A stretch of DNA of 64,000 nt from Chloroflexota bacterium (GTDB lineage: Bacteria; Chloroflexota; Anaerolineae; Anaerolineales; VGOW01). Each line of letters begins with the position of its first letter. Positions within the stretch are counted from its first letter, which is position 1. Shown in pieces: positions 8,824 to 45,422 of this stretch. The DNA lies in NCBI GenBank assembly GCA_016875735.1, contig VGOW01000003.1, forward strand, positions 1 through 64,000. Reading direction: 5' to 3'. Position numbers and translations under genes: made by a program. The notes below the pieces were generated by a model. The model did not search any database, was not told the origin of the DNA, and saw nothing but the letters and a program-made list of their open reading frames with translations.

Positions 8824-9552
8824 CTAACTGTTCCGCAATCGCAATTGCCGGGCGAAGAACAATACGACGACGAGCGCGGCGGCCAGAATGAAGAGGCCGG
8901 GCCCGCCGAAGTTGTCGGCGATGCCGGTGTCGGGCAGGGCGGTGGGGGTGGGCGTGCGCGTTTCGCCGCCGCCGCCCACGCCGCCGGGCGCGGTGGCCGT
9001 GAAGGTGCGCGAGGCTGTTGCGGTGATGCCGCCAGCCTGAATACGCGTGGGCGTGCCGGTGACGGTTGCGCCAGCGCCTGCGGCGGTTGTAGTCACTGCG
9101 GCCACTGCCGTGCCCGCGCTCCCGCCGATGCGCGTGGGTGTGCGGCTGGGCGTGGGGCTGGGGCCGGCGGTGTTGGTGGCGGTGAAGGTGGCCGACGGCC
9201 CGACGATGGCGATCACTGGCGTATCGCTGGGGGCGACTTCGGGGGGCGTGGTCGGCTCAAGGGTGAATGTCGGTTCGGGGGTGTTGGTGGCCGGGTTGGC
9301 GGTGAGCGCCGCGTCGAGGGCAACCTGCGTGTTGGCCGCGTTGATGGCTTCGGCGGTGGCGACGCGCCCCGCCTGTTGCTGCGGGACGATGAGGAACGCA
9401 TACAGCGCAATGCAGATCAGGCCGACGATGAACAACCCGCCGAGGCCGACGGCGATGAGGATGAACGTGCGGTTCGACGATTGCTCGGGAGCATCCTCAG
9501 CAATCCCTTCCTCTTCGGGCTCAATTTCAGCATCAGGGTTGAATTCGGTCAT
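8824..9552 (-). CDS. Thr/Pro-rich membrane protein with LPDTG-like C-terminus
   Basis: 242 aa. A short acidic cytosolic N-terminus (about residues 1-28), one transmembrane helix (30-56), a low-complexity Thr/Ser/Pro/Ala stalk (60-205), then LPDTG followed by a glycine-rich spacer, a second hydrophobic helix (LFILAAALVVVLFFARQ) and the basic tail LRLRNS. The last part matches the layout of a cell-wall sorting signal, although the N-terminus is a membrane anchor and not a cleavable signal peptide. The AGGAG of a Shine-Dalgarno lies just upstream of the ATG. Function unknown. It lies downstream of the MutL-like operon on the same strand, 86 bases away, and might be its last gene. Confidence 0.75.
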   Translation of the reverse strand: MTEFNPDAEIEPEEEGIAEDAPEQSSNRTFILIAVGLGGLFIVGLICIALYAFLIVPQQQAGRVATAEAINAANTQVALDAALTANPATNTPEPTFTLEPTTPPEVAPSDTPVIAIVGPSATFTATNTAGPSPTPSRTPTRIGGSAGTAVAAVTTTAAGAGATVTGTPTRIQAGGITATASRTFTATAPGGVGGGGETRTPTPTALPDTGIADNFGGPGLFILAAALVVVLFFARQLRLRNS

Positions 9553-9638: not shown

Positions 9639-10709
9639 TCACTCGAAAATTTCAAGGTTGGCCACCGGCACGATCACTTCCTCGTCCTGCCCTTCGATCT
9701 CCACTCGCGCCGCATGGCATTGCAGGCCGCAGGGGAAGACGTGCGTTCGGGGCAGGATGTGCTGCACCGTGCCGATAGCGCCCGCGTGCGGCGCGCGCAA
9801 TAGGCGCACACGCTTGCTTTCGGTGAGCGGCTGGCCGTCGGAGGGCACCGGCGGCATCCCGCCCGAAGGCGGCAGGGGGATGATCACTTCCGGTCGGCGC
9901 GATTCCCAACGATCGGGCGGGCGGGCGTCCACAAACGCCTCGCGGCCATTGTGATCGGCCAACAGAGTCCACGCATGAGACGACATGATTTGTTTGCCAA
10001 ACCCTTCCACCACGAGAACGGGGAAGGAGAGCGAACGCGCGATGCGTATGAGGGAGGCCGACATGCTTCCCAAAATGAGGCCGCGCACTTTCACCGTTTC
10101 GGCCCGGCGGAGTATTTGGTCGTCGGCGTTGCCGCCCACCACAATGGCTCCGGCGCAACTCGAGTCGAGCAGTTCGGTGGGCAGTGGCTGGGCCGGGTCG
10201 TTGATGAGCATTTTCAGTGCGCCGTATTCTTGCCTACCCGATCCCCATGCGCCCTGCACGAGCGCGCCGGGGGTTTCGAGGATTACGCCCCAATCGGCGT
10301 TCACACTGGAAACCATTCCGGGGAATCCGGCTTTGAGTTCGTAATCGGGATGGGTGACGGCGAACAGCACTTTGCCGTCTTTCACTTCCACCATCGTGCC
10401 TTTCGACGGAGCGCGCACCATTTTTTTGCTCAGCCCGAAGGCCGTGGGGCGCAGAGCGATGAGTTCGCCTTTCTCCATTGCCGTGCCCGGTTGAACTCGC
10501 AAAAACCTTTCGGCCTGCCCAAGCGGCGCGTCGAGCCGCTGGACGAGATCGAAGAAATAATGGCGGCCCGTGACTTCGGCTTTGGCAACCACCGTCGTCG
10601 CATCTACTCGTTCGCCGTCGCTCACCAGCACATAACCCGGCCGGGGCAATAAACGCTCCCGGCGGATGGTGGCCAGCGGCGAAACGTGTGTGGTCGTTGG
10701 GACGTACAT
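9639..10709 (-). CDS. uncharacterised protein with biotinyl/lipoyl-like and KOW-like parts
   Basis: 356 aa from the ATG at 10709. The frame is open much further upstream, but that part is antisense-like and overlaps the MutL-like gene. Residues about 70-115 (RVQPGTAMEKGELIA...VRAPSKGTMVEVKDGKVLF) have the rhythm of a biotinyl/lipoyl-type barrel but no carrier lysine motif. Residues about 175-260 contain VVGGNADDQILRRAETVKVRGLILGSMS. The last 55 residues (RVRLLRAPHAGAIGTVQHI...VPVANLEIFE) look like a KOW-type small barrel. Function unknown. It is the last gene of the MutL-like operon, separated from it by a repeat, and such linkage suggests a role with that ATPase. Confidence 0.75.
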   Translation of the reverse strand: MYVPTTTHVSPLATIRRERLLPRPGYVLVSDGERVDATTVVAKAEVTGRHYFFDLVQRLDAPLGQAERFLRVQPGTAMEKGELIALRPTAFGLSKKMVRAPSKGTMVEVKDGKVLFAVTHPDYELKAGFPGMVSSVNADWGVILETPGALVQGAWGSGRQEYGALKMLINDPAQPLPTELLDSSCAGAIVVGGNADDQILRRAETVKVRGLILGSMSASLIRIARSLSFPVLVVEGFGKQIMSSHAWTLLADHNGREAFVDARPPDRWESRRPEVIIPLPPSGGMPPVPSDGQPLTESKRVRLLRAPHAGAIGTVQHILPRTHVFPCGLQCHAARVEIEGQDEEVIVPVANLEIFE

Positions 10710-10730
10710 TGCAAGAATCAGGCCAAGGGA

Positions 10731-10808
10731 GAAGTCAGAAGTTAGAAGTGAAAAGTCGGAATGCAACACGCCACTCTGACATCTGACTTCTTGCTTCTGT
10801 CTTCTGCA
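10731..10808. repeat. AGAAGTC-heptad inverted repeat
   Basis: Left arm of 7-base words AGAAGTC, AGAAGTT, AGAAGTG, AAAAGTC; right arm of their complements (TCTGACTTCTTGCTTCTGTCTTCTG). AGAAGTCAGA (10731-10740) pairs exactly with TCTGACTTCT (10782-10791). It lies between the MutL-like gene and the gene downstream of it in the operon. Confidence 0.8.
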
Positions 10809-10810
10809 TT

Positions 10811-12553
10811 CTACAGCCCATACTCTCCCACATTCATGTTCCACTTGCTCACGGCTTCGTATCGTTTGTCGGCGGCGGTGGGGATGCCGATGGGGCGGCC
10901 CCGCGCATCCACGATCAATCCCACTGCGCCGCTGTTGATGGCAATGGTCTTCGACGCGCCGCGCCCAAATCCGGCGTCGAACGCGCCCGACGGCTGAATG
11001 GAAACTTTGACATCCACATTGGGCGGCATGTGAACCACTTCCAACGATCCGAAAGTGATCTTCTGATCGATCTTTTCTCCGGTGGGGAGCGAGGCTTTCA
11101 CTCGCACCGCCTCTTGCCCGGGGCGGCCCTCGCCCACGAGCGACACCGCCGCGCCCAAATTGATCAGCGCGTTCGTTTCCAGAGCCTGCACCACCGCGGT
11201 CGGATTCATGGCGGCGGCGGCGCCGAGCGCGGGCATGAGACACTGCCAATCCAACAGCAGAGTCGTGACGCCCGTTGGTTGAAGACTGTCGAGCAGCATG
11301 AGCGCGGCCTGCCCGGGCTTGGGCGCGCGAGCCAGCACCGCGCCGCTGCCGATGATCGTGTCGAACGCAGGCGTGAGGCCCGGATAGCCTTTGAGTTTCG
11401 CCGGCCACACCGCCGACTGCGCCACGCCTTGCAAACATTGGCGGGCGAGGGCGTGTTCGATCTGCAGCTCGCGCAATTCCTGCGGCACAGTGGCCGGATA
11501 CAGAGTCTTGTTGGAAAGATAATCGCGGAGGTCGTCGTCGAGAGTGGCTTCGGGCATCCAACGGGCAATGCGATCGATGGCGTTGGCGAGGTGCGCCGCG
11601 CTGTGCCCCACGCCCAGATCGGCGCGCACGGTTACCGACCCGTCGCCGCCGATGGCGGCGGCCAATGTGGTGGTGGCCGATCCCACATCCACTGCGAGCA
11701 CGCCTTTGCCGCCCTCCATCGCCCGGCTCAAGTAGCGCACGAGGTTGCCGAACGCCGAAGCATTGGGCGCGACTCCGTTGCCGCTCCACTGCGCCAGTTC
11801 GCCGTAGCCGGGCATGGCTCTCAATCGCACCCGCTCATACAATCGCGCGAGCTGCCTGCGCGCCGAAGCAATCGTTTCGTCGTTGAGCGAGGGGCGCAAG
11901 TTTTCGGCCACAACCACATCGCATACCCCCGCAAACATATCGCGCACCCGATCATGCAGTACGGCGTTGCCCACAAACAGAATGTCGGGGCGCGCGGCTT
12001 CGCGCATCAGCCGGGTGGCGATGGCTACGGTGTCGGCCAGTTTGAGCACCGCGCCCTGCGAGCCGTGATCGGTGCCGCCGGAAATGATCACCACTTCGGG
12101 CTTGGCGTTGATCAGATCGTCGATCTGCTTTTCGCGCCGCCGCCGGTCGCCCAACCCCAATCGATCCACGATGGTGGCTTGGCCCGACATGGCAATGCGT
12201 TCGGCGCTGGCCAGCGAAATGTTGGGCATGAGGCCCACCAGCGCAACGCGCAGGGGTTTGCCCACGCTGGCCGAAACGGCAAAGGCATCCACGCCCGCGC
12301 CGTCGGCGCGAGTGGGCATGAGCAGGCGATCCCCCTCATCCATGAATGGCCGCGCAGTGATGATATGCAAATGATCCAACGCTTGCCGCACGCCTTCGCC
12401 CATGTAACTGAATGGCGGCTCGGCGGTGCTTCGCGCTTCGCCCGCGGCCACAAATCGGAACTGGCCGCTCACAATGTCCAACAGCGCGGCGCGAGTGGTT
12501 ACGCTTCCGATGTCGGCGGCGAGGATTGAGTCGGTGGGAGCGGCGGAGGTCAT
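10811..12553 (-). CDS. MutL/GlmL-family ASKHA ATPase (annotated elsewhere as glutamate mutase L)
   Basis: 580 aa. Actin-like (ASKHA) nucleotide-binding protein: phosphate-1 type loops DIGSVTT (14-20) and DVGSATT (289-295), and SGGTDHG (158-164). This is the two-lobed arrangement of the family named after MutL/GlmL, a protein encoded with B12-dependent glutamate mutase in clostridia. Neither glmE/glmS (mutS/mutE) nor any B12-mutase gene is present here. Instead it is embedded in an operon of membrane proteins, so a mutase-chaperone role is unlikely in this context and an assembly- or filament-type ATPase is an alternative. Start ATG at 12553, 17 bases after the upstream gene. Confidence 0.85.
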   Translation of the reverse strand: MTSAAPTDSILAADIGSVTTRAALLDIVSGQFRFVAAGEARSTAEPPFSYMGEGVRQALDHLHIITARPFMDEGDRLLMPTRADGAGVDAFAVSASVGKPLRVALVGLMPNISLASAERIAMSGQATIVDRLGLGDRRRREKQIDDLINAKPEVVIISGGTDHGSQGAVLKLADTVAIATRLMREAARPDILFVGNAVLHDRVRDMFAGVCDVVVAENLRPSLNDETIASARRQLARLYERVRLRAMPGYGELAQWSGNGVAPNASAFGNLVRYLSRAMEGGKGVLAVDVGSATTTLAAAIGGDGSVTVRADLGVGHSAAHLANAIDRIARWMPEATLDDDLRDYLSNKTLYPATVPQELRELQIEHALARQCLQGVAQSAVWPAKLKGYPGLTPAFDTIIGSGAVLARAPKPGQAALMLLDSLQPTGVTTLLLDWQCLMPALGAAAAMNPTAVVQALETNALINLGAAVSLVGEGRPGQEAVRVKASLPTGEKIDQKITFGSLEVVHMPPNVDVKVSIQPSGAFDAGFGRGASKTIAINSGAVGLIVDARGRPIGIPTAADKRYEAVSKWNMNVGEYGL

Positions 12554-12569
12554 TGGGGAAAGTCGCGCC

Positions 12570-13268
12570 TCAAGTTCCGAAGCCGGCAGCCTTGAGCAAG
12601 GCTTGAGTCGTCGCGATCAGAAATTGGATCCGTTCGATGAACAGCGCGAAGGAGGCGGCCACCGCGCCGGTGTAGAACGCGGCCAACGCCACCATCATTG
12701 CCCCTTGCCCGGCCCACGCCGCTGGCAGCATTAAGCGGAAACGCTCGCCGCGCCCATCGGGCTTGGACTGGCCGGTGAAGAAGAAATAGAGGAGCACCGC
12801 CGCCGAGGCCGCCAGCGCGATGAGCAGTTTGAGCAATCCGAAGAAACCGGACTCGGGCGGAGACCACGAAGCCTGCACTTGCGAAAAAATTGTGCCAGTG
12901 ATTGCGCCGCCCACCGTGAGCGCCGCGCCCACGCCCACCATGAACGCCAACGCAAAGTTGCCCATGGGCGCGAGGCGCGGGAAGACTCGCAGAAAAATAA
13001 AAACCCCCAACACCCACGGAATGAGTTGAAGGGTGAACGGTTGCCAATCTCCGGCGAGCAGGCCAGAGACGGCATCCATCACCGCAAGGGATCGGGGCGC
13101 GATCACCGATTGCACGGCGACCGTTGTGGCGTACGCCGTGGCCACGCCCACAAACAAATGCACGGCGATCCGATAGAGCGGGTTATCGCCAATGAGGTAA
13201 CTGAACACCATCATCGTGAGACTGGCCGCCAGCAAACTGGGAAGGAGTGGAGCGAGTTGATCGATCAT
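12570..13268 (-). CDS. polytopic membrane protein of the MutL-like operon
   Basis: 232 aa with about six or seven hydrophobic helices (around residues 8-26, 31-52, 62-84, 88-104, 108-130, 140-160, 190-215). Polar loops are short; a more hydrophilic stretch (about residues 165-180, FTGQSKPDGRGERFR) lies near the end. I recognise no family motif. Its ATG overlaps the stop of the upstream zinc-ribbon gene by the ATGA arrangement, implying translational coupling. Likely the membrane base of the complex encoded by this operon, by position only. Confidence 0.8.
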   Translation of the reverse strand: MIDQLAPLLPSLLAASLTMMVFSYLIGDNPLYRIAVHLFVGVATAYATTVAVQSVIAPRSLAVMDAVSGLLAGDWQPFTLQLIPWVLGVFIFLRVFPRLAPMGNFALAFMVGVGAALTVGGAITGTIFSQVQASWSPPESGFFGLLKLLIALAASAAVLLYFFFTGQSKPDGRGERFRLMLPAAWAGQGAMMVALAAFYTGAVAASFALFIERIQFLIATTQALLKAAGFGT

Positions 13269-16200
13269 TTCTTTCGCGCTTTGGGCCGGGCAATTTTCGC
13301 CGCCCCCGTTTTCGTCGCTCTGCGCCGCACGGTGGGCGAAACCGGCGCGGGCGAGGCCAACGGCGCGGCGGGTTGTGCCGCCGTGCGCCGCTGGCCGATG
13401 AGCGCAAACACACTGAGCAATGCGCCGCCCACGAGAATGGCCGCGCTCGCGTGCAGGCTGATGGCAAAACTATTCCAGCGGATGGCCGCTTGCGCCGCCG
13501 ATTCGGATGCGCGGCCAGTGGCGCGGTCGTAACCGATTGCGCCCGCCAGCCCGGACACCAGCCCGGTGATGGGCGGCGTGTCGCCGCCAGTGAACGGCGC
13601 GACGAGCGGCTCGGCGGCGGCGCTGGTGATGGCCGACATGGGTTGGCCTTCGCGCTTCACTTGCCCGATCCATCTCTGCGCATCGTCGTGCGAAGCCGAG
13701 ACGACGATGATGAGGTCGAAGTTTTCGAGGCCGGTGAAGCCGGTCAGCGCCTCCCGCTCGAAAGGCTTCTCGCCGCCGCTGAAGTCGCGAAGGATGGTTG
13801 CAGTGGGCGCAGTGGCGAAGTGCTGAAGGCCGGTGGCGCCGCCGGGAATGTAGCCGAGATTGATGTAACTCTTGCCATAGCCTTCGGCGACTCCGGATTC
13901 GGCCGCCACTCGATCCATCACGTTCTGCGCGATCAATGCGCCGGTGGGATACGTGCTCACGGCGGCGATGCGCGCGCCGCGTTTCATGAGATGCGCCAGC
14001 ACCGATTCGATGATGGGATTCAATTCGCCGGTGTATGCCGGCTCATATTCAAAGGCTATCAACGCGAGAGGCGGTTGATCGGATGGCAAGGCTTCGATGG
14101 TTTGGAATAACGGCCTCCCACCCGAAGAAAGTTCGGGAAACGGAAACAGGCCAATGGGCAAATAGGCGGCAACCGGCGGCAGAAGCGGAAGGATGGCCAC
14201 AGCGATCAACATGAGGGCGACGATCAATCGCCCAAACGAATAATGGATGCGGGCGCGTTTGCGCGGGCGTATCTCTGCCGGTTCGGCGGTTTCCTCTTGA
14301 ATGATGGCGCGCAACATTTCGGCGCGGCGCTCTTGCGCATCGGAGATGAGGAATTGGGCTACGGCGCTCCCCGGTTTGCCGGCCACAGCAATGACCGACT
14401 CGGCGGGGAGGATGCCGCGCATTCCGGCCAGGGGTCCGGCGGTTTCTTCGCGCTCCGGTTCGAGCGCGAGAATGGCCGCTTGTGAATCGGGCGGGCGCAT
14501 TTGCCGCAGCCACAAGGGGACAACGGCTTGGGTGATGTCTTCTCCGGCGGGCGCTTCGGTGAAAGCCGCTGCCGATGGAAGCGGAGCAGATGGCGCAGAG
14601 GGGAAGGACGGGGCGCCGGGCAACGTCTCATCGGGGCTGATGCTTGTAGCCGTGCTCACCCCGCTCGGAGGCTTCACCCAATCGGGCAAGTCGGCGCTGG
14701 CGATGGCAGGCGCTTCGGGCAATGGCGCGGCGCCGGTGATGTCGAGCCCGGTGGGGCGCATGGCCGCCAGCCACGGCGGCAGGTCGGCGTTTTCGATTCC
14801 TTCGCCGCCGGGAGGCAGTGGCCCTGTCTCTGCCGCAGTGGGTTGGGGCAAGGGGCCGATGGGTGGGCGCGTGGGGGCGGCGGCTTCGATGGGTTTGTCG
14901 AGAGAGGCCAGCCAATCGAGATCGGAAGAATCTGTTTCCCGCAATTCGCCGGTGACAGCCGCCATGTCGAAAGCGGGCGTGGGCTCGTCGCTCACTTTGC
15001 CGAAGTTTTTGAGCCAGTCGGTGGTGCCGACGACGGCGCGCGCGGATGGTGAGGCCGATGGGGTTTCGGGCGGCGTCGGCTCGGCGGGCGGCGGGCTCTG
15101 CTTCATCCAATCGGGCAGGTCTTCGTCGTTGCCGATCACCCAATCGGGCTCGCCCGATTTCATGGCCTGATCGAAATCTTGCGCATCGAACGCGGGCGGC
15201 GCATCGGGGGCGGGTTCAGAAGCGGCCAGCGAGTTGAGCCAGTCGGCGGCGCCGAGGACTGATTTGCCGCTCGGCTTCAATGTCCCGGTGCTTCCAGTGG
15301 AAACGGGCGGCTGTGAGCTGAGCCAGCCAGTGGCGCCGGTTTTTTTGGCGGGCGGCGTTGATGAATCGGGTTGGAATGAGGCGAGCCAATCGGTGGTGCC
15401 GATGACTGCTTTGCCTTCAGCGTCGGGGGGCGCGGGCGGAGGGGGCGCGGACTCGGTGGAGGCGAGCCAACTGGTTACGCCGACAACGGGCTTCTGCCCC
15501 TCTTCGGATGGAGGAGGCTTCAGCCATTCGGGGAGTTCGGCGCGCGGCAGTGATTCTGATTCTGGCGATTGCAGCCAGTCGGTGGCGCCGACGACCGGCT
15601 TCTGCCCTTCGTCCGGCGGGGGAGAGGTCAGCCAATCGAGCGACTCGGGGGTGGCTTGCGATTCGGCTGAGGCCAGCCAATCGGTCATGCCCAACACGGC
15701 TTTCGGTTGAGGCTCAGCGGGCGGGGGCGGTTCAACAGGCGCTTCGATGGGGGTGGGAATCTTTTTATCGAAGGGACCGGTTGCTTTTTTGATGACCGGG
15801 CTTTCGAGCCAGCTGGGCAGTGGAGGCTCTTCGGCGGCGGGCGGTTCGCCAACCGCGCCGACGAGCGTTTCGTCAGTGGAACTCGGAGGCCGCAACCATT
15901 CGGGCAGTTCGGAATCGGCGGCGGGTGGTTCGGGTTGAGTCGGCGCGCGAACCGCCCCGATGAGTGTTTCATCGGTGGGGCCGAATGATTGCAACCAGTT
16001 GACATCTTCTCCGTTTTGCGATTCGGATTCCACTGGGGAGGAGAGCCAATCGGGTTCGGCAGAGGAGGCGCGCAGAGAGCCGAGCCAATCGCCGCCTTCG
16101 GGGCTTTGGGCGGGGGCGGGTTCTTCGGTTGCGGGCTGAGGGGCTTCTTCTTCCGCCTCTTGCGTTTCATCCTGTGCGCGCAGTTTCGCCAGCCAGTCAT

Positions 16201-16495
16201 CCACCGAGGGGGCCGCGCCGGAGTCGGCGGCGGGTTCTTCGGGAGTCGATTCGAATGACGATGTCCCACTGCGCAGAGAGCCGAGCCAGTCGTCGGCCTC
16301 TTTTCCGGCGGCGGGTTTCGGTTCCGGTTCGGGGGCGGGCGCAGGAGGGGGTGCGGGTTTCTTCCAATCGGAAGGCAGGTCGAGGGCGCTGGTGGGAGGC
16401 AGAACGAGGGGCCGGAGGCGCGCGCCGCAGAACTGACACACGTCGAGCGTGTCGGGATTCAGTTTACTGCACATCGGGCATCGGAGATCGGCCAC
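13265..16495 (-). CDS. zinc-ribbon / DWL-repeat / membrane-anchored giant protein
   Basis: 1076 aa from a GTG. Four parts. (1) An N-terminal zinc ribbon (Cys6, Cys9, Cys20, Cys23). (2) About 620 residues of acidic, Pro/Ser/Glu-rich disordered sequence with more than twenty Trp-Leu short motifs, mostly DWLxSL, DWLASF, PEWLRPP or PDWLSSP types, often preceded by 'VVGxT'. (3) A transmembrane segment near 750-785 after a basic RPRKRARIHYSFGR stretch. (4) An external domain of about 220 residues, a second helix near 1012-1033 and a Lys/Arg-rich tail. Coupled by ATGA overlap to the next membrane gene. The first region looks like a cytosolic multivalent docking platform. No enzyme motif seen. Confidence 0.8.
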   Translation of the reverse strand: MADLRCPMCSKLNPDTLDVCQFCGARLRPLVLPPTSALDLPSDWKKPAPPPAPAPEPEPKPAAGKEADDWLGSLRSGTSSFESTPEEPAADSGAAPSVDDWLAKLRAQDETQEAEEEAPQPATEEPAPAQSPEGGDWLGSLRASSAEPDWLSSPVESESQNGEDVNWLQSFGPTDETLIGAVRAPTQPEPPAADSELPEWLRPPSSTDETLVGAVGEPPAAEEPPLPSWLESPVIKKATGPFDKKIPTPIEAPVEPPPPAEPQPKAVLGMTDWLASAESQATPESLDWLTSPPPDEGQKPVVGATDWLQSPESESLPRAELPEWLKPPPSEEGQKPVVGVTSWLASTESAPPPPAPPDAEGKAVIGTTDWLASFQPDSSTPPAKKTGATGWLSSQPPVSTGSTGTLKPSGKSVLGAADWLNSLAASEPAPDAPPAFDAQDFDQAMKSGEPDWVIGNDEDLPDWMKQSPPPAEPTPPETPSASPSARAVVGTTDWLKNFGKVSDEPTPAFDMAAVTGELRETDSSDLDWLASLDKPIEAAAPTRPPIGPLPQPTAAETGPLPPGGEGIENADLPPWLAAMRPTGLDITGAAPLPEAPAIASADLPDWVKPPSGVSTATSISPDETLPGAPSFPSAPSAPLPSAAAFTEAPAGEDITQAVVPLWLRQMRPPDSQAAILALEPEREETAGPLAGMRGILPAESVIAVAGKPGSAVAQFLISDAQERRAEMLRAIIQEETAEPAEIRPRKRARIHYSFGRLIVALMLIAVAILPLLPPVAAYLPIGLFPFPELSSGGRPLFQTIEALPSDQPPLALIAFEYEPAYTGELNPIIESVLAHLMKRGARIAAVSTYPTGALIAQNVMDRVAAESGVAEGYGKSYINLGYIPGGATGLQHFATAPTATILRDFSGGEKPFEREALTGFTGLENFDLIIVVSASHDDAQRWIGQVKREGQPMSAITSAAAEPLVAPFTGGDTPPITGLVSGLAGAIGYDRATGRASESAAQAAIRWNSFAISLHASAAILVGGALLSVFALIGQRRTAAQPAAPLASPAPVSPTVRRRATKTGAAKIARPKARKK

Positions 16496-16496
16496 G

Positions 16497-17162
16497 TTAA
16501 TCTCCGTAAGGGTGATCGACTCCGATGATGACCCGCAAGCCGGTGGCGACTGCGCCGAGAGCGATGCCCAACAGAATGCCGCGCGCCGCGCCCATTGCCA
16601 GCGGCTGAATGAGCAGATCGCGCAGGCCCTGCGCGAAAGAGAGCGGGCCGAGCGGCGCGAGGCTGACGAGGAGGAAAAGTGACACGAGAATGAACAGCAC
16701 CGCCGACCAGTGGCGCCGGGCGCGGATGAGGCGTGCTCCGGCCAACACCATCACGACGACGAGCAGCGCCGAGAGCGAGGCCTCGACCGGCGTTTGCACA
16801 AATTGAAAAGCGACGTTAAGAGACTCTTGGCTCAGTTTGATCACGTCGGCGCGGGTGGGTTCGTCGGGCGCAAACGCGGCAGCGTAACCGAGCAGCCACA
16901 TGAAGATCACAAACACAAAGGCGATGACCAGCACGGCGCTGTACGCCCATCCGGCGCTGAAGGCGCTCACTTTGCGAATGTGCACCGACATGAGATTGAC
17001 GATGCCGGCCAAAAGGGCAATGGCCGCCAGAGTCGCCGCCCATTGCAGAAGCACGGGAAAGACGGTCGTCAGCGGTTCGACGCGAATGAAGAAGGCGAGC
17101 AGGGTGACGACCCCCGATACCACCGCCACCGGAACGGCGAGCGAGAGGCGCAGTTTCATCAA
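16497..17162 (-). CDS. membrane protein of the MutL-like operon
   Basis: 221 aa, about six hydrophobic segments (near 8-27, 36-56, 67-90, 120-142, 148-170, 185-208), with one more polar stretch at about residues 92-115 containing APDEPTRADVIKLSQES. The ATG at 17162 overlaps the stop of the preceding gene (ATGA), and the stop is followed after one base by the GTG of the zinc-ribbon gene. No recognised family. Context makes it a membrane subunit of the operon's complex. Confidence 0.78.
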   Translation of the reverse strand: MMKLRLSLAVPVAVVSGVVTLLAFFIRVEPLTTVFPVLLQWAATLAAIALLAGIVNLMSVHIRKVSAFSAGWAYSAVLVIAFVFVIFMWLLGYAAAFAPDEPTRADVIKLSQESLNVAFQFVQTPVEASLSALLVVVMVLAGARLIRARRHWSAVLFILVSLFLLVSLAPLGPLSFAQGLRDLLIQPLAMGAARGILLGIALGAVATGLRVIIGVDHPYGD

Positions 17163-17920
17163 ATGATCCCCACCAATTTCAACAGCGCCCCGATGAAGAG
17201 CGCGGCGATGATCAGCAATCGCGCCACATCCTGCGCGTGCAAGCTGGCGCGGTGGAACGGTTTGCCGCCGAGAAGATACGCGCCGCTGGCGTACACGTCC
17301 TCCCCAAGCAAAGTCTCATCGGCAGTGACGTAAGCCGCCGCCTGCGCTTGCGCGTTGTCGGTGCCGATGATTTGGTGCGCGTTCTCGCCCCATCCGGCAT
17401 CGGCCATCAGCGCCACTTCGTTGCCGAAACTTCCAATGAGCAAACTGGTGGACACGTTTTCGTCTTTCAGCGTCGTCATCGCGCCGACGGTGAACGAAAG
17501 CGGCGTGGGCCCGGCCATGCGGCCCGAAAGATGATCGTAGCGTTCGGCGGCGTTCTGGCGCTCGTAAGCGCGGCGCAGAGTTTCTTGCGCCAGCATCGCC
17601 GCCGCGCCATCGCCTGCCGTCACCACTGGGGGTTTATCGGAAATGGTGGCCGCATCGGCGATGGATTCCAGCACAGTGATCCCGGCCAATGCGCCGGTGG
17701 TCGTCTCCGTGCCCACCGCGCCCGCGCCCAACGACACATGAATGCGCGTGCCGCCCTCTATCGACTCGCCAGCCTTTTGAGGCAAATCGTTGAAGGCATC
17801 CACCGGGCGCAGGCCCAGCATTTTGCTCCGCTCCGGGTTTCGCGCCCACAGCCCGACGCCGATGATAAGCACGGCCATCATCCCCGCGAGGCCCAAACCC
17901 AAAAGGGAAGCGATGGTCAT
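17159..17920 (-). CDS. uncharacterised membrane-anchored protein (possibly DUF6754)
   Basis: 253 aa from the ATG at 17920, which overlaps the upstream stop as ATGA. One N-terminal helix (4-24), a soluble domain of about 200 residues rich in Gly/Ala/Thr (RIHVSLGAGAVGTETTTGAL; VVTAGDGAAAMLAQETLRRAYERQN; SLLIGSFGNEVALMADAG), and a C-terminal helix (232-250). I believe this corresponds to the family named DUF6754 but cannot verify it without a profile search. No catalytic motif is evident. Second gene of the MutL-like operon. Confidence 0.75.
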   Translation of the reverse strand: MTIASLLGLGLAGMMAVLIIGVGLWARNPERSKMLGLRPVDAFNDLPQKAGESIEGGTRIHVSLGAGAVGTETTTGALAGITVLESIADAATISDKPPVVTAGDGAAAMLAQETLRRAYERQNAAERYDHLSGRMAGPTPLSFTVGAMTTLKDENVSTSLLIGSFGNEVALMADAGWGENAHQIIGTDNAQAQAAAYVTADETLLGEDVYASGAYLLGGKPFHRASLHAQDVARLLIIAALFIGALLKLVGII

Positions 17921-18147
17921 GAACGGGACTCCGTCTCTGCCCTTTCGAGCCGGTCGGCCAGCGCGGCAATGGCGGCCAGCCCGGAGTCGTCGGCGAATGC
18001 GCCGAGCGTGGGTTGGGCCACGCGCAGGCCCTGCGCGGTGAGAAAGGCCAGCGGCGATCCGGGCCGGAAGAGTTCGGCGAAGAAATCGCCGAAACCCAGC
18101 GCATTCAATCGCCCCCGCCACTCGGCAAAAATAGAAGTTTTGTTCAC
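17917..18147 (-). CDS. small protein, first gene of the MutL-like operon
   Basis: 76 aa from a GTG (VNKTSIFAEWRGRLNALGFG). An ATG further upstream would translate intergenic repeat and is rejected. Amphipathic and alpha-helical by eye, without a membrane segment (GDFFAELFRPGSPLAFLTAQG...LAAIAALADRLERAE). A TGcTATACT extended -10 box ends 7 bases before the GTG, so the message is probably leaderless. The stop overlaps the next gene's ATG. Function unknown. Confidence 0.65.
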   Translation of the reverse strand: MNKTSIFAEWRGRLNALGFGDFFAELFRPGSPLAFLTAQGLRVAQPTLGAFADDSGLAAIAALADRLERAETESRS

Positions 18148-24590: not shown

Positions 24591-24835
24591 CTCCGACGGA
24601 ACTCAAACTGCAATCCATCGTCGCCGAGAAATTGAAGATCGACCCGGCCAGTGTGCCGCTCGATCAATCCCTCGCCGACGATCTCGGATTGGACTCGTTC
24701 GACATCATGGCCGTCATTCTCGACATCGAGCAAACCTTTCCGCCCGTCTCTCTTTCCGACGAGGCGGCGCAGAACTTGAAGACACTGCGCGAGGTGGCCG
24801 CCTTCATCGATGGCCGCTTGGCCGCCCGCGCGTAG
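24587..24835 (+). CDS. acyl carrier protein
   Basis: 82 aa. The four-helix carrier with the phosphopantetheine attachment serine in LGLDSFD (Ser about residue 37) and acidic helix II (DIMAVILDIEQTF). Its ATG overlaps the stop of the acyl-ACP-reductase-like gene, so the two are translationally coupled and presumably work on the same acyl chain. It differs from housekeeping AcpP in the DSFD in place of DSLD motif, which suggests a dedicated carrier. Confidence 0.9.
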   Translation: MTPTELKLQSIVAEKLKIDPASVPLDQSLADDLGLDSFDIMAVILDIEQTFPPVSLSDEAAQNLKTLREVAAFIDGRLAARA

Positions 24836-24902
24836 CGTTTGGCGATTCGGCGCTTTCAGGCTATATTTCGGGCACTCACACGCAAAGCATTCGGAGAGCA
24901 CA

Positions 24903-25046
24903 ATGCCCCCACCCAGTTGGATCGGACAGACTATCGGCGGACGGCACAAAATAGAAACCCTGCTCGGGCAGGGAGGCATGTCGGCGGTTTACAGTCGGCG
25001 GTTTACAAAGGCACGGATCCCAATCTGCGCCGCGCCGTCGCCGCAA
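24903..25046 (+). pseudogene. remnant of a Ser/Thr protein kinase N-lobe
   Basis: The ATG at 24903 starts a kinase glycine loop (GRHKIETLLGQGGMSAVY). A perfect 14-bp tandem duplication (24980-24993 and 24994-25007) shifts the frame; in the shifted frame the kinase continues as YKGTDPNLRRAVA and then stops matching. The catalytic Lys and all later kinase motifs are absent, and the following sequence is the FHA gene. So a frame-shifting duplication and a deletion of nearly the whole kinase domain have occurred. Confidence 0.75.
24980..25007 (+). repeat. 14-bp perfect tandem duplication
   Basis: GTCGGCGGTTTACA twice in a row within the kinase glycine-loop codons. Looks like a recent slippage event. 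Confidence 0.95.
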
Positions 25047-25520
25047 ATGCTCATCGATGACATCAACCGCCTCATCGACCCGAGCATCAACCTCTCCCTT
25101 CCGTGGGACACGCTGGGCGTGCGCGGCGACTCCGGCGCGGCCGCCTCTCACCACACCACCAGCCAGATCACCGATCGCGGTTGCTTCCTCTTATCGGATC
25201 GCGGCGACAAAATTCCGCTCACGCGCCGCGAGGTGGTCATTGGCCGCTCGGCCCCCACCGACGACACTTGGGTGCCCGATGTGGACGTGCGCCAACTCGC
25301 GCTCGATAAAGCCAAAACCGTCTCGCGTTTCCACTGCCGCATCTTCATCCCCGAAGACGGCGTCTATCGCCTCATGGACATGGGCAGTTTCAACGGCACG
25401 TGGCTCAACGGGCGGCGGCTCGAAAGCAAAGAAGCCGTTGTGCTCGGCGACGGCGATCAGATTCATCTCGGCGGCATCGCTTTCAGGTTTCACGATCCCA
25501 AGCGAGTGAGCGTCATATGA
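25047..25520 (+). CDS. FHA-domain protein
   Basis: 157 aa if started at the ATG at 25047; the frame is open upstream into the kinase remnant. The N-terminal 45 residues (MLIDDINRLIDPSINLSLPW) precede an FHA domain: VVIGRS, TVSRFHCRIF (Arg/Ser/His phosphothreonine contacts), GSFNGTWLNGRRL and DGDQIHLGG. FHA domains bind phosphothreonine peptides. Its stop overlaps the ATG of the VWA-FHA gene, and a kinase and phosphatase follow, so it should read phosphorylation made by the kinase encoded at 27611. Confidence 0.85.
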   Translation: MLIDDINRLIDPSINLSLPWDTLGVRGDSGAAASHHTTSQITDRGCFLLSDRGDKIPLTRREVVIGRSAPTDDTWVPDVDVRQLALDKAKTVSRFHCRIFIPEDGVYRLMDMGSFNGTWLNGRRLESKEAVVLGDGDQIHLGGIAFRFHDPKRVSVI

Positions 25521-27586
25521 GTCGCCGCCCTCTGCGCACACTGTTGGCGCTGGCGGCGGGGATAGCAACCCTCGCCCCGATGACGGCGCCCCGGCACGCG
25601 GCGGCCCAATCGTCATACTCGGCCATCATCACCGCCATCAACCCCTCGGCCTTTCCAGAGATCACGGCCACCGTCTCCATATCCGACACCACCACCGGCC
25701 TGCGAATCCCCGGGCTCGGCAAATCCGATTTCGCCCTGCTCGAGAACGGCGAGGACGTGAACATCGAAGAAATCCGCGAAGAGGACGTGGGGTTGCAATT
25801 GGCCTTCGTCATCGACTCCTCCTCCGCGTTTTCTAAACGGGACGCCGACACCTTCACCCGGCTCGATCACGTCAAAACATCCATCATCAACTTTGCTGTG
25901 GGCGAGGGCGAGTCGGGCAACGCCTACATGAAAGATGTGGTGGACACGGTGAACATCTTTGCCCCCGAAGGCATTGTGGCGCAGAACTCGTCCATCGGCG
26001 GCGAAATACGAAACGCGCTCATCGCCTATCAAAGCGACTTCCTCGAAGACACGGGGTTGTTCGGCCTCATCGCTCAGGCGTTGGATTCGGTGTCGGCCTC
26101 CACCGCGCAGCCGGGCATGAGGCGCGAAGTGATCATCTTCACCTCGGGCATCGACGCCTCTGCCGATGCCCAAGTGTCGGCGCTAGCCCAGCGCGCTGTG
26201 GCCGGAAATATCGTCGTGCACACCGTGTTGATCGGCCCGGCGGCCAGCGTGAGCCAACCCATCGCCGAAAACGTGAAAGCCCTGTCGTCGCTCACCGGCG
26301 GCGCATTCGTGTATTTCGAGGAGCCCGCCTCCACGAATGCGTTGTGGGGCGCGATCATTACTCAGCGCGCGCAGTATCGGCTCGTGTATCGTTCGGGGGT
26401 GAGGCAGAGCGGCCAGCACACCCTGCAGCTGCTGGCGAACATTCGCGGCCTCTCCCTGCTTTCCGGCGCCGAAAGTTTTTCGCTCGCCATCCAACCGCCG
26501 CTCATCACTGTCACCAATGCGCCGGTGGAAATTGTTCGCGCCACCGACGAGCGCGGCGCGAACCCGGCCTCCATCGAGCCGCGAGAGCAAGTGATCTCGG
26601 TGGCAATCGAATCCCCCGACGGCTACCCGCGCAACATCGCCAAACTGCAGCTCATCGTGGATAACACCATCGCCGACGAGATCACCGCTGGCCCGTTCGA
26701 CACCCTCCACTGGGATCTCAGCGGTTACAGTGAAACGGCGGCACACGGAATGCAAGCGCTGGTGATCGACGAACTCGGGCTCGAGGGCCGGAGTGAAATC
26801 GCCAACGTGCTGGTCACCGTGGACGTGCCCCCGCCGCTCATCGCCACCGCCGGGCCGGTGGTGTTGGGCGTGAGCGTGGCCGTGATCGCCGGAGTGGCCG
26901 TGCTGGCTTTGGTGGTGGCCGTCGTCGTTCTCTTTTTGCGCCGCCCCACCATCATCACCAACATTGTGCGCGAGGCCAGCGGGCGAGTGAAAGAAATGAC
27001 CGAGCCCTTCATTCCCACGCCGCATCATGGCGCGGCAAAGAACCGGCCCGGCAAAGCCTACCTCGATCGGATCGACGACACCGTGCCCGGCCCGCACCCG
27101 GCCATCGAACTCATCAGCGACAACCTGCGCTTGGGCCGCGATGAAACGCTGGCGCAGATCGCCTTCAACGACAAGTCCGTGTCGCGCCTTCATGCCCGCA
27201 TCACCGAAGAGGCCGACGGCGTCTTCTTCATCCCCGACGAAGGCTCCACCTCCGGCACGTGGGTCAACTATCATCAAGTGTCGCTCTCGGGCCAGCAGCT
27301 GCGGCACGGCGATGTGATCAATTTGGGCCGCGTGCAGCTGCGCTTCAGCCTGAGAACGAAAACATCGCCCCCGCCGAGTCCGATTCCCGCCCCAACGCCG
27401 GCGGCTTCGGCGCAAACTGCTCCCGCCTATTCCACCGAGCCATTCGATGCGGCGATGATAAGAACAGCGCAAGAAAAAACGGAGCAGGGCGTCCATTCGC
27501 AGGTGAAGAATCGAGACAAAGATAACGACGCCGAATTCCACACCGAAGCCTTCACGCCGCGATTCGACAGCGACCCCGACTCGTAA
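25517..27586 (+). CDS. secreted VWA domain / transmembrane / cytosolic FHA protein
   Basis: 689 aa from the ATG at 25517, overlapping the FHA gene stop (ATGA). Order: signal peptide (1-30, ending RHAAAQ), an external von Willebrand A domain (about 95-290) whose metal site reads VIDSSSAFSK, an incomplete DxSxS, a beta-sandwich region (about 320-445), a transmembrane helix (about 452-475), then a cytosolic FHA domain (about 535-612) with LRLGRD, SVSRLHARI and GSTSGTWVNY, and a Pro-rich acidic tail. It can couple external binding to internal phosphothreonine recognition. Part of the FHA-VWA-kinase-phosphatase cluster. Confidence 0.88.
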   Translation: MSRRPLRTLLALAAGIATLAPMTAPRHAAAQSSYSAIITAINPSAFPEITATVSISDTTTGLRIPGLGKSDFALLENGEDVNIEEIREEDVGLQLAFVIDSSSAFSKRDADTFTRLDHVKTSIINFAVGEGESGNAYMKDVVDTVNIFAPEGIVAQNSSIGGEIRNALIAYQSDFLEDTGLFGLIAQALDSVSASTAQPGMRREVIIFTSGIDASADAQVSALAQRAVAGNIVVHTVLIGPAASVSQPIAENVKALSSLTGGAFVYFEEPASTNALWGAIITQRAQYRLVYRSGVRQSGQHTLQLLANIRGLSLLSGAESFSLAIQPPLITVTNAPVEIVRATDERGANPASIEPREQVISVAIESPDGYPRNIAKLQLIVDNTIADEITAGPFDTLHWDLSGYSETAAHGMQALVIDELGLEGRSEIANVLVTVDVPPPLIATAGPVVLGVSVAVIAGVAVLALVVAVVVLFLRRPTIITNIVREASGRVKEMTEPFIPTPHHGAAKNRPGKAYLDRIDDTVPGPHPAIELISDNLRLGRDETLAQIAFNDKSVSRLHARITEEADGVFFIPDEGSTSGTWVNYHQVSLSGQQLRHGDVINLGRVQLRFSLRTKTSPPPSPIPAPTPAASAQTAPAYSTEPFDAAMIRTAQEKTEQGVHSQVKNRDKDNDAEFHTEAFTPRFDSDPDS

Positions 27587-27610
27587 ACAGCCTCCGCCGA
27601 TTCCCCCTCA

Positions 27611-28858
27611 ATGCCCGAACCCACCATCGGCGCCACCATCGGCCCCTTCACCATCATCGAAGCCATGCCTGCCGGGCACGGCGGCATGGCTCGCGTGTAT
27701 ATTGCCTCGGTGGGTGAGCACGCCGCCGTTACCGGCGCAAGCAATGTGGAGTCGCTGCCCGAACGCGTGGCGTTGAAGATCGCCCGCGTGGGCACGCCCG
27801 ACAGCGCCTCGTCGGAGCAGGCGTTTTATTTCGAGGCGCTGAACAACGAGGTGGAAACCCTCAAGCGCTTGCGCCATCCCAACATCGTCCGCCTCTTCCC
27901 CATCCCGCGCGGATTGCCGCGCAACCCCTACGCCGCCCGCGCCACCGAACTCGACGGGATGCCGTGGTTCTGCGCCATGGAATACCTCAGCGGCGGCTCG
28001 CTCGAAAGCCGCTTGAAAACCGTAGAGGCTTTGCCGCTGGCCGAAGCGATGGAGATCGCTTATCAGGTCTGCCTCGCCCTCGATCACATCCACCTCAAAG
28101 GCATGGCGCACCTCGACGTGAAGCCCGACAACGTGCTCTTCCGCTACCCGTTGAACACCGGCAATGTCGCGCTCCGCCATCTCCAGCCGGTGCTTATCGA
28201 TTTCGGCATCGCCAACAAAATGCGCAAGATCGGGCCGCCAGCCGGGTCCATCCCCTTCATGGCTCCCGAACGAATCCGCGTCATGCGCGGCGAAGTGGCC
28301 CCCGAACACTTCGGCGATCAATCCAAAGTGGATGTGTACGGACTCGGCGTGCTCCTTTATCGGATGCTCACCGGCCACTTGCCCTACGAAGGCCTCCCGC
28401 GCGATCAACTCACTAGCGCCATCCTCCAAACCCATCCCAAAACCCCGCGCGAGATCAATGCCGCCATCTCGCCCAAAGTGGATGAATTGGTGATGGCGAC
28501 TCTGGAGAAAGACCCGGGTCGGCGCCCCCGAATCGAAGAAGTGATCACCCGGCTCGATGAGGCGATGGTCGCTCGCCCGCCCGCGCCCCCGTTGATCAAA
28601 CCTGCCGCCCGCCGCAACCGCAGGCCTTTGCTCACCACCCTCCTCGCCGTCGCATTATTCTTGTGCTCCATCGTTTCGTTGGTTGGATGGGGGCTGTTCG
28701 CGGGAACGGCGCTCATTGCCCCCACCCCCACCGCCGCCGCCACCCTCACTTCCACATTCACACCGCCGCCGCCCACCGACACATCCACCCCCACCGCCAC
28801 CCAGCCTCCCACACCCACGCCGCTGGCGGCCACATCCACTCCTGCCACAACTCCCTGA
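27611..28858 (+). CDS. membrane Ser/Thr protein kinase (non-RD)
   Basis: 415 aa. Hanks-type kinase, residues about 12-300: modified glycine loop (AGHGGMARVYIAS), VALKIARV with the ATP Lys, NEVETLKRLRHPNIV (alpha-C Glu), catalytic loop MAHLDVKPDN in which the usual HRD Arg is Leu, IDFGIAN, and MAPERIR. Then a transmembrane helix (about 343-367) and a short external Thr/Pro stalk (PTPTAAATLTSTFT...). A non-RD kinase usually does not need activation-loop phosphorylation. The following PP2C gene begins 5 bases after the stop. It probably phosphorylates the neighbouring FHA proteins' partners. Confidence 0.9.
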   Translation: MPEPTIGATIGPFTIIEAMPAGHGGMARVYIASVGEHAAVTGASNVESLPERVALKIARVGTPDSASSEQAFYFEALNNEVETLKRLRHPNIVRLFPIPRGLPRNPYAARATELDGMPWFCAMEYLSGGSLESRLKTVEALPLAEAMEIAYQVCLALDHIHLKGMAHLDVKPDNVLFRYPLNTGNVALRHLQPVLIDFGIANKMRKIGPPAGSIPFMAPERIRVMRGEVAPEHFGDQSKVDVYGLGVLLYRMLTGHLPYEGLPRDQLTSAILQTHPKTPREINAAISPKVDELVMATLEKDPGRRPRIEEVITRLDEAMVARPPAPPLIKPAARRNRRPLLTTLLAVALFLCSIVSLVGWGLFAGTALIAPTPTAAATLTSTFTPPPPTDTSTPTATQPPTPTPLAATSTPATTP

Positions 28859-36787: not shown

Positions 36788-38755
36788 TTAGAACAACCCC
36801 CTCACCTTCCCGGTCTTCAAATCCAAATCCACATCGAAGAACACCGGGCGGGTGGGCAGGCCGGGCATAGTGCGCATAGCGCCCACCAGCGGGTAGATGA
36901 AGCCTGCGCCCACACTGGCGCGCATATCGCGGATGGTGACGCGGAAGCCAGTGGGCGCGCCCTTCACTTCGGCTTTATCACTGAAGGAGAGGTGCGTCTT
37001 GGCCATGCAGATGGGCAGGCCCGCGAACCCCAGCCGCGTGTAAAGTTCCACTTTGGCTTCGGCTTCGGGGGTGAAGTCTACGCCATCGGCGCGATAAATT
37101 TCGCGGGCGATGGTTTCAATCTTCTCCTTGATGCCCATCTCCAGCGGATAGAGGAACTGGAATTTCTTGGGTTTCTCTGCCGCGGCAATCACTGCTTTAC
37201 CCAATTCAATTGCGCCTTTGCCGCCGTGCATCCAATGTGTGCAGACGCAAGCGTCCGAGGCCCCGGCCTCGACAGCCGCCTTGCGCACCAACTCTACTTC
37301 GGCGGGCGTGTCGTACTTGAAAGAGTTGACGGCCACCACCACCGGCACGCCGTATTTGCGGGCGTTCTCGATGTGGCGCACCATATTGCCCATACCGGCT
37401 TTGAGCAATTCCAAGTTCTCTTCGGTGTAGGCTTTGTCCAACGGCTTGCCCGCCACCACTTTGGGGCCGCCGCCGTGCATCTTGAGCGCACGGATGGTCG
37501 CCACGATCACGACCACATCCGGAACCAGCCCGGAGTAGCGGCACTTGATGTCCATGAACTTTTCCATGCCGATGTCCGCGCCGAAGCCGGACTCGGTGAC
37601 AACGTAGCCGTCTTTGCCCACCAACTTCAAAGCGATCTGATCGGCGACGATGGACGATTGCCCATGGGCGATGTTGGCAAACGGCCCGGCGTGAACGAAG
37701 GCCGGGGTGCCTTCCAACGTCTGCATGAGGTTGGGCATGATAGCGTCCTTCATCAACACAGTGAGCGCGCCGGCCACGCCGAGGTCTTCAGCGGTGAGAG
37801 CCTCGCCGCGCGTATTGGTGCCGAACACGATCCGGCTGAAACGCTCGCGCATGTCTTCCAGCGACGTGGTGAGGGCGAGGATGGCCATGATCTCGCTGGC
37901 CACCGTGATGTCGAAGCCAGTGTTCCGCTCGTTGCCTTTTTCCTCGTCGCCCCTGCCGATTTCGATGCGGCGCAGGAGGCGATCGTTGATATCCATCACC
38001 CGTTGCCAGGTGATGCTGGCCGCGTCGATGTCCAGGCGGAAGATGAGGCGCTTCTCTTCGGGGGTCAGGTCTTCGAATTTCTCTTTCTTCACACCCACCT
38101 TATCCATGCGGCGGCGGACGCTCGGAGCGATATACCCATCGGGGCAAAAGGCTTTGGCGAGTTTCTCGTCGTCGGCCTGAGCGCGCTCGTGCAAAATGCG
38201 CGCGTCAATGGCGGCGGCCATCAGGTTGTTGGCGGCGGTGATGGCGTGGATGTCGCCGGTGAGGTGGAGGTTGAAATCCTCCATCGGGATGGCTTGGGAA
38301 TAGCCGCCGCCCGCCGCGCCGCCTTTGATGCCGAAGGTGGGGCCCATCGAAGGTTGACGGATACAGGTGAATACTTTTTTGCCGAGATGCGCGCCCAATG
38401 CTTGCGAGAGGCCGAGCGTGGTGGTCGTCTTCCCTTCGCCCAACGGCGTGGGGGTAATGGCGGTCACGTCAATGTATTTGCCGCTGGGCTTTTTCGCCAG
38501 CCGGTCGCGCACATCCAAATGCACTTTCGCCTTGTAGGGGCCAAACAGTTCAAGGTCTGTTTCTTTCAAGCCCACTTCGGATGCAATTTGCAAAATGGGT
38601 TTGAGTTTGCCTGCCTGCGCAATTTCAATATCCGAGGGCACAGGGTTGAGCAGTTTGAGTTTGGTGGGAGTGAAAGCGGGAGTTGGTTTGGCCTTTGCTT
38701 TGGCTTTGGGCTTGGCTTTCGCCACTTGGGTAGACTTCTTACTAATCTTTGGCAT
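36788..38755 (-). CDS. fhs: formate-tetrahydrofolate ligase
   Basis: 655 aa. Catalyses ATP + formate + THF to 10-formyl-THF. Nucleotide-binding [13 protein letters not shown] starts near residue 104; [22 protein letters not shown]-like HGGGPKVV, and [14 protein letters not shown] are present. It belongs to the longer, eukaryote-like group (compare about 557 aa for most bacterial Fhs). The first 25 residues ([20 protein letters not shown]...) are a Lys/Ala-rich tail not found in usual Fhs. An AAGGAG site precedes the ATG. With formate dehydrogenase 1.6 kb away it links CO2/formate to folate C1 metabolism. Confidence 0.96.
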
Positions 38756-38856
38756 ATCTGTCGTCTCCTTATGAATTTATTGGCACTGTATTATGAAACA
38801 GAAACACTGCCCGGCAAACTGAGTAATATCACTTGTTCTCGGAAAATCTGTCAGGG

Positions 38857-39822
38857 CTAACCCAGAATTCCCGTGCCGCGAATGGGCCCCTTCCACTCGC
38901 CGGGGAAAGTTTCCAGCGCGCGCCGGGCCAAATAACTCACCTGCGAGCCGCGATCCAATTGGCACGCTTCCACCGCACGCCGCGCTTCGGGCGTGTGCCA
39001 CTCGATGATCCGCCTCAGCGCCGCCACCCGCAACCGGCCGTTGTTCTCTTCCACCGGCTCGTCCACTCCGGGTTTGCTGGCGTAGCCCATCCGCGAATTC
39101 TCCAATATGGCAACCAGCGATCCCACTACGTTCGGGTGGTTGATCCGCGTGAGCCGTTCCACCGAAGTGAACGCCGCATCGAGATCGGCCAGCCGCAATG
39201 CCCGGAAGCGGTGCAGTTGTATCAGCGTGAGCAGGGCCACTTCGCGCACAATCTTGTCGTAGTCGTAAATCGCCTCTTCAATCTCGGCGATGGCTTCCAA
39301 ATCCTGCGCCGCGCCGGAACGATTGGCGAACTCGGCGGCGGCGCGGTGTCGGGGAGCCGGGTCGTTGCCGCGCAGGTCGTATTCTTTTCGCGCGCGGTCG
39401 ATCAATCGCCCGGCGGGTGTGAGCGGCTTCGTCTCTACTTCGGGTCGAGAGAGGGCGGCTAACTCCTCTTCGGTGGCATCGAGAATGAACAGCACATGTT
39501 TGATTGCGGCTTGCACTGCCTCGTCGTCTTTCGACCAATCGGCAAGCTCGCTCAAGTACGCGCGCAGAGCATCTTCGCCGGGCTGGGCCATTACCTCTTT
39601 GGCCCGGTCACGCCAAACGTTCACATCTTCGGCAATCGTCCCGCGCCGCTCGCGCAGCTCATCCTGCTCGGCGACGAACTTGGCTTTCTCTTCGCCCTCG
39701 CTTTCGATAACCTTGCGCGTGAGCACATTGAGCCGGTCGCTGACGGCGATGAACTCGCGTTGAATAGAATCGGCCTTCGCGTTCAACGCTTTCTGTAATT
39801 GGTTGAGTCCTTGCCCCAGCAT
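38857..39822 (-). CDS. coiled-coil plus HEAT-like repeat protein, function unknown
   Basis: 321 aa. The first 90 residues are an amphipathic coiled coil (DRLNVLTRKVIESEGEEKAKFVAEQDELRERRG). The rest is an all-alpha region with repeated helix pairs (EIEEAIYDYDKIVREVALLTLIQLHRF, RLRVAALRRIIEWHTPEARRAVEAC) resembling HEAT-type repeats. No enzyme motif. It lies between DinB and fhs on the same strand, with 41 bases from the DinB stop and about 100 bases before the fhs start, so it may be the last gene of the formate dehydrogenase operon. Confidence 0.6.
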   Translation of the reverse strand: MLGQGLNQLQKALNAKADSIQREFIAVSDRLNVLTRKVIESEGEEKAKFVAEQDELRERRGTIAEDVNVWRDRAKEVMAQPGEDALRAYLSELADWSKDDEAVQAAIKHVLFILDATEEELAALSRPEVETKPLTPAGRLIDRARKEYDLRGNDPAPRHRAAAEFANRSGAAQDLEAIAEIEEAIYDYDKIVREVALLTLIQLHRFRALRLADLDAAFTSVERLTRINHPNVVGSLVAILENSRMGYASKPGVDEPVEENNGRLRVAALRRIIEWHTPEARRAVEACQLDRGSQVSYLARRALETFPGEWKGPIRGTGILG

Positions 39823-39863
39823 TGCGCATCACCCCGAAGTGAAAGACGAAAGCCCAAAGGCGA

Positions 39864-40379: not shown

Positions 40380-40382
40380 GGA

Positions 40383-42542: not shown

Positions 42543-42562
42543 GAGCGACTCCTTGCCCCCTT

Positions 42563-42979: not shown

Positions 42980-42991
42980 GTTTCCTCTCCG

Positions 42992-44532: not shown

Positions 44533-44558
44533 CCTTCGTCATCCCATTGTTCATTGTC

Positions 44559-45341: not shown

Positions 45342-45346
45342 GTTTT

Positions 45347-45421
45347 GATTCACGAAGCGCACGAAGATCACGAAGAGTGCAATCTTTGCTCTTCGTGCCC
45401 CTTCGTGTTCCTTCGTGAATC
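45347..45421. repeat. CACGAAG-word inverted repeat between diaphorase gene and fdhD
   Basis: Left arm GATTCACGAAG (45347-45357), further CACGAAG copies at 9-base steps, right arm ending CTTCGTGAATC (45411-45421). It fills the entire gap between the two genes, as in the ABC transporter operon at 3187-3266. Confidence 0.85.
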
Positions 45422-45422
45422 A

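Follow-up and report, generated by a model that had tools for sequence, protein, structure and literature searches.

Seven genes on the minus strand of the window, the 64,000-nucleotide stretch of Chloroflexota DNA analysed here, belong to a conserved multi-gene system that is well supported and extends far outside this phylum. On sequence grounds, its ATPase (g6) represents a family separate from GlmL, and its large membrane protein (g4) has gained, in Chloroflexota, a zinc ribbon and up to ~63 [DE]-x-P-x-W-L repeats.

The genes run from position 18147 to 9639, and all seven open reading frames are complete, uninterrupted and co-directional, as the first-pass annotation had it. The first, g1 (17917..18147, GTG start), encodes a small soluble protein of 76 aa without a Pfam match, and is followed by g2 (17159..17920), which encodes a 253-aa DUF6754 protein with a Rossmann-like domain, predicted to be cytoplasmic, between two transmembrane (TM) segments. 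Two polytopic membrane proteins, g3 (16497..17159, 220 aa, ~6 TM segments) and g5 (12570..13268, 232 aa, 4-6 TM segments), flank g4 (13265..16495, GTG start), whose product of 1076 aa has an N-terminal zinc ribbon, W-L repeats and a domain between two TM segments. The operon continues with g6 (10811..12553), a 580-aa ASKHA ATPase that is a sister of GlmL and has a C-terminal DARGRP region, and ends with g7 (9639..10709), a 356-aa protein combining a barrel-sandwich hybrid, a swivelling beta/beta/alpha domain and a KOW part. ATGA overlaps had been described at three junctions; those at g1/g2 and g4/g5 are present, but g2/g3 is a 1-base TGATG overlap. Likewise, the gaps of 1 base (g3/g4) and 101 bases (g6/g7) were given correctly, but the one at g5/g6 is 16 bases and not 17. 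The DUF6754 assignment of g2 is borne out by a Pfam match (PF20539, 3.6e-25, 89 bits versus a gathering cut-off of 27), as is that of g6 to the MutL family (PF13941, 2.2e-62, 211.8 bits versus 27). The KOW match in g7 is present (9e-4) but falls under the Pfam cut-off, and the zinc-ribbon match of g4, strong among homologues, is weak for the window protein alone (0.11). Rfam gave no match between positions 9400 and 18700.

Directly downstream of g7 lies a gene (8824-9552, minus strand) for a 242-aa protein without a Pfam match, which combines an N-terminal TM segment with a stretch rich in Pro and Thr; its C-terminal tail (LPDTG, hydrophobic, basic) is reminiscent of a sortase signal. Homologues of this protein (cluster c12) are found just downstream of g7 at four further loci of the same order. 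Elsewhere in the window, an FHA protein, a VWA-FHA transmembrane protein and a Ser/Thr kinase are encoded consecutively on the plus strand (24810-28858), and a formate-tetrahydrofolate ligase, a molybdopterin oxidoreductase and a NuoE/F-like fusion are encoded on the minus strand (36788-47246), possibly as a formate/C1 energy module.

The gene order also occurs in other genomes. We examined 41 Chloroflexota loci (40 and the window), picked for a MutL match, by means of iterated profiles; gene starts outside the window come from a simple ORF caller. The g1-g6 genes were in the window order at 20 of these loci, with g7 adjacent in 13 of the 20, and g2-g7 were present without a detected g1 at two more. 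Over all 41 loci g1 was counted 20 times, g2, g3, g4 and g5 22 times each, g6 41 times and g7 31 times, and wherever the genes were present their order was invariably g1-g2-g3-g4-g5-g6-g7. The shared order is far beyond chance, and complete g1-g7 or g1-g6 sets include records of Bellilinea, Anaerolinea and Chloroflexus. Among 201 Chloroflexota genomes, MutL scored over the cut-off in 83 and DUF6754 in 44, and 43 of these 44 also had a MutL match over the cut-off, a co-occurrence whose p-value is overstated because the statistics are inflated by kinship among the sampled genomes. In Chloroflexus-like genomes the operon has no g7 next to it, but each of the eight that were tested holds one g7 match elsewhere, which rules out a loss of g7 in Chloroflexia; two control genomes with an operon-adjacent g7 likewise hold one match. 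Other Chloroflexota families have g6-g7 without g2-g5. At these loci the gene directly upstream of g6-g7 usually encodes a zinc-ribbon protein; most of these proteins carry W-L repeats, and often they have a short basic-aromatic tail at their end.

The system is also found in other phyla. With g5 as the query against 84,980 named genomes, 297 related places were obtained, of which 80 were kept. By record title, the kept matches beyond Chloroflexota came from WOR-3, Stahlbacteria, Latescibacterota, Cloacimonadota, Hydrothermus, Eisenbacteria, Planctomycetota, Poribacteria, Coatesbacteria and Calditrichaeota (Calditrichota); the Cloacimonadota (L140) and Hydrothermus (L162) records fall in the WOR-3-centred phylum, so that fewer phyla are represented than there are labels. 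The order g2-g3-g4-g5 is kept in WOR-3 and, going by record titles, in Eisenbacteria, Planctomycetota, Poribacteria, Coatesbacteria and Calditrichota. A g6-type ATPase was present in all 13 non-Chloroflexota genomes checked, with profile matches of 1e-133 to 1e-172 at the 12 loci read, and at 9 of these 12 a g1 homologue directly precedes g6. All seven genes are contiguous in one Eisenbacteria genome (L173, in the order g1-g6-g7-g2-g3-g4-g5) and in some WOR-3 genomes. At L187, L188 and L190 the g2-g5 block is doubled: it occurs twice after gcvPB-g1-g6-g7, and a gene for a lipoyl ligase comes next. Of 60 WOR-3 genomes, 54 hold DUF6754 (one to seven copies), 55 hold MutL and 52 hold both. Tandem duplication of the entire g2-g3-g4-g5 block was seen at L140, L157, L160, L163 and L186-L190, and G201, a WOR-3 genome, yielded seven matches to DUF6754. 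The interpretation given in the first-pass annotation is partly supported; it missed the reach far outside Chloroflexota, the nature of the W-L scaffold as an extension, specific to Chloroflexota, of a small transmembrane protein, and the single copy of g7 even where this gene lies outside the operon.

The name of the Pfam family raises the question whether g6 assists a B12 mutase as a reactivase or chaperone of the GlmL type, in an operon that serves amino-acid fermentation. The Pfam MutL match (2.2e-62) and sub-threshold matches to the NCBIfam GlmL models would fit this, but g6 scores 92.3 bits with one model, whose cut-off is 475, and 76.2 with the other, whose cut-off is 204. Of the two findings that the first-pass annotation had named as refuting it, a unique gene order is contradicted by the loci above, and co-occurrence of the ATPase with glutamate mutase subunits was not borne out: mutE exceeded its cut-off in only 4 of the 201 Chloroflexota genomes, and not in the window genome (G000). 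The best MutL matches (E < 1e-136) come from four genomes, and three of these, G089, G176 and G178, also hold glutamate mutase E. In G176 and G089 mutE adjoins the strong MutL gene, which is not the g6 of the operon; G176 has its strong GlmL next to mutE and, separately, a g6 operon. In a tree of 48 rows, with arbitrary rooting and some long rows, Chloroflexota g6 sequences lie on one side of a branch (100/99), those of other phyla on another (96/97), and mutase-type GlmL proteins form a third group on a separate long branch (100/100). Both families share the ASKHA fold family, the two phosphate motifs and the adenosine motif; in Chloroflexota g6, phosphate-1 has D in 21 and E in 4 of 25 sequences, and phosphate-2 has D in 22 of 25. 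However, g6 is ~575-625 aa or longer versus ~465 aa for GlmL, falls outside the GlmL clade, is not accompanied by mutase genes, and has a C-terminal D-x-R-G-R-P region whose D and R are aligned in 38 of 38 g6 sequences, whereas the region is absent from all five GlmL sequences. Based on the cut-off scores, the rarity of mutE, the tree and the C-terminal region, we rejected a GlmL function for g6, which co-occurrence largely refutes and which we consider highly improbable. Some WOR-3 genomes (L246 and L247 in G222 and G255) contain a second g6 relative of >700 aa that branches apart from both g6 and GlmL.

As for the membrane proteins, the AF2 model of g2 (pLDDT 89.7) shows a TM segment, a Rossmann-like domain and a second TM segment. 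Charge bias at the first TM segment puts this domain in the cytoplasm in 22 of 25 rows, and the domain of g4 is placed outside in 25 of 31 rows; from these sequence features, the g2 domain is probably cytoplasmic and the g4 domain probably extracytoplasmic. The g2 model had no Foldseek match at E <= 0.001, and its structural similarities to Sir2 (Z 11), GmhA (10) and RCK (9.5) were read as generic Rossmann likeness. Profile searches of the PDB with g2 and g5 returned no significant relative, and a homology between g3 and g5 was unsupported (hhalign probability 0.3%). Two conserved polytopic proteins, g3 and g5, together with a g2 domain that aligns with generic Rossmannoids including RCK/KTN (Z about 9.5), could be taken to mean that the system is a small-solute transporter or channel regulated by the cytoplasmic domain of g2. 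We regard this as unlikely: unrelated Rossmann folds often reach such Z values, no family of transporters was matched, and an ASKHA partner with a KOW adaptor would be unusual.

The predicted structure of g7 (pLDDT 90.7) consists of the barrel-sandwich, swivelling beta/beta/alpha and KOW parts. Its N-terminal barrel-sandwich part matches RnfC_N and NusG-like domains, and the swivelling domain aligns with Z ~11 over 102-110 residues to those of PTS enzyme I and rifampin phosphotransferase. The lipoyl-like character of the barrel-sandwich domain is one of three observations that might connect the system to the glycine cleavage/lipoate pathway, in which it could, for instance, aid maturation or channelling as a device tied to the membrane; the others are gcvPB, which lies directly upstream of g1-g6 at ~14 loci (WOR-3 type and Eisenbacteria), and the lipoyl ligase gene lplA, which follows g5 in 11 WOR-3 genomes. 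However, the domain is nearer to the RnfC/NusG type than to lipoylated domains, no gcv or lplA gene occurs among the annotated Chloroflexota neighbours, the gcvPB and lplA links may stem from a single ancestral operon, and four dedicated membrane proteins are ill-suited to soluble enzymes. A role in this pathway seems rather improbable.

Outside Chloroflexota, g4 is only ~285 aa long. In the window protein, the zinc ribbon is followed by a low-complexity region of ~700 aa with W-L repeats, and then by a predicted extracytoplasmic domain between two TM segments. Among 19 aligned g4 homologues, 12 match a double zinc ribbon family (best 7e-11). The tryptophans of the long g4 proteins are mostly found within [DE]-[VLA]-P-[DA]-W-L-[RQ], and PxW[LMVI] occurs 5-63 times in 15 of 19 long proteins versus means of 0.2-1.6 after shuffling, the highest count of 63 standing against a shuffled mean of 1.6. 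The window g4 has 9 copies versus 0.7, and 22 of its 23 tryptophans have L, M, V or I as the next residue. The repeats are absent outside Chloroflexota and from some Chloroflexota (L047 and L057-L059). Some Chloroflexia-type ATPases themselves carry W-L motifs (L050 and L052) and a basic-aromatic tail. In the window genome, seven P-D-W-L codon patterns are clustered on one strand outside the operon (contig C10, 77334-78814), perhaps marking a second W-L repeat protein; as a search of whole genomes, the DNA pattern was too noisy for counting other carriers.

A repeat protein that ends in basic-aromatic tails or is anchored by TM segments would suit a polarity, gliding or cell-architecture scaffold, in which g6 would act as a cytoskeletal switch and the W-L repeats as multivalent glue. 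The arrangement in Chloroflexia, where g7 lies upstream of genes for a hybrid histidine kinase and a receiver/roadblock protein, points the same way. On the other hand, the repeat scaffold is lacking in the WOR-3 form, gliding is not known for many of the carriers, and filament formation is conjecture, which makes such a scaffold an unlikely purpose.

We tentatively favour the reading that the seven genes form one functional unit, an envelope complex with g6 as ASKHA switch, g7 as adaptor and g1 as partner, although we give it somewhat less than an even chance. In this model, g2, g3, g4 and g5 would form a transmembrane complex that is organised from the cytoplasm by the nucleotide switch of g6, with g7 as its adaptor and g1 as a small partner. 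By analogy with PilM on PilN, g6 would bind ATP and clamp the complex from its cytoplasmic side. The partner peptide that docks g6 or g7 in Chloroflexota may be the repeated [DE]-x-P-x-W-L-[RQ] of g4, which would make g4 a multivalent scaffold, clustering the complexes or linking them to g7. Since the repeats are missing outside Chloroflexota and from some of its members, they cannot be a universal docking site. The more specific proposal, that this is a new class of envelope machine found in several phyla, with four membrane proteins driven by the GlmL-sister ASKHA ATPase together with its KOW/swivel adaptor, and that Chloroflexota added a giant W-L tail to one subunit so that the ATPase clusters many complexes, is less likely than not. 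The first-pass annotation had spoken of an undescribed envelope machine; the membrane proteins are there and no description was found, but the role as a machine stays inference. In the literature covered, which leaves out most subscription journals, no paper on DUF6754 or PF13941 was found, nor anything relevant on GlmL/MutL and Chloroflexota or on ASKHA and Chloroflexi.

What the complex might do can be approached from neighbouring genes. Among stand-alone g2-g5 copies of the WOR-3 type, a Wzi-like gene follows g5 in 6 genomes and a Wza-like SLBB/Poly_export gene precedes g2 in 6 genomes. These neighbours weakly suggest that the handling of a surface polymer, which the complex may assemble, export or anchor, is the most likely purpose. 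The link is weak because it comes from WOR-3 type genomes only (12 in all), and perhaps from few independent events; none of these neighbours was seen at Chloroflexota operons, nor was the operon seen to be accompanied by a glycosyltransferase cluster. As the hints from the Wzi/Wza, lplA/gcvPB and kinase neighbours conflict, we took none of them as decisive.

Several known systems resemble parts of this operon. In the PilM-PilN-PilO platform of type IV pili, a cytoplasmic actin-fold ATP-binding protein likewise acts on a membrane platform: PilM binds ATP as well as the PilN N terminus (PMC6325625). PilM is also the best PDB profile match of g6, a weak and local one (E 0.009). However, g6 has no Pfam PilM match, g2-g5 match no Pil family in Pfam, and pilin, traffic ATPase and secretin are absent from the operon. 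With FtsA of the divisome, g6 shares the actin fold at the membrane, but it has no FtsA match, MutL being its only Pfam family. FtsA is separately present in 189 of 201 genomes, which rules out g6 as its substitute, and SHS2_FTSA is found elsewhere in the window genome. The capsule export proteins Wza and Wzi adjoin some WOR-3 g2-g5 copies, but g1-g7 lie outside these families, and Wzc, Wzx and an ABC exporter are absent from the operon.

The Pfam name of the g6-type ATPase is borrowed from a helper of a vitamin-B12 enzyme, a mutase, and is misleading. The presence of DUF6754 in 54 of 60 WOR-3 genomes and in many Chloroflexota likely reflects a core cell function that has no name yet. The pairing of g6 with g4 offers a tractable case of an ASKHA switch combined with a repeat-motif scaffold. 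Chloroflexota envelopes are poorly understood, and the seven-gene set is a concrete candidate for unexplained envelope biology in this phylum.
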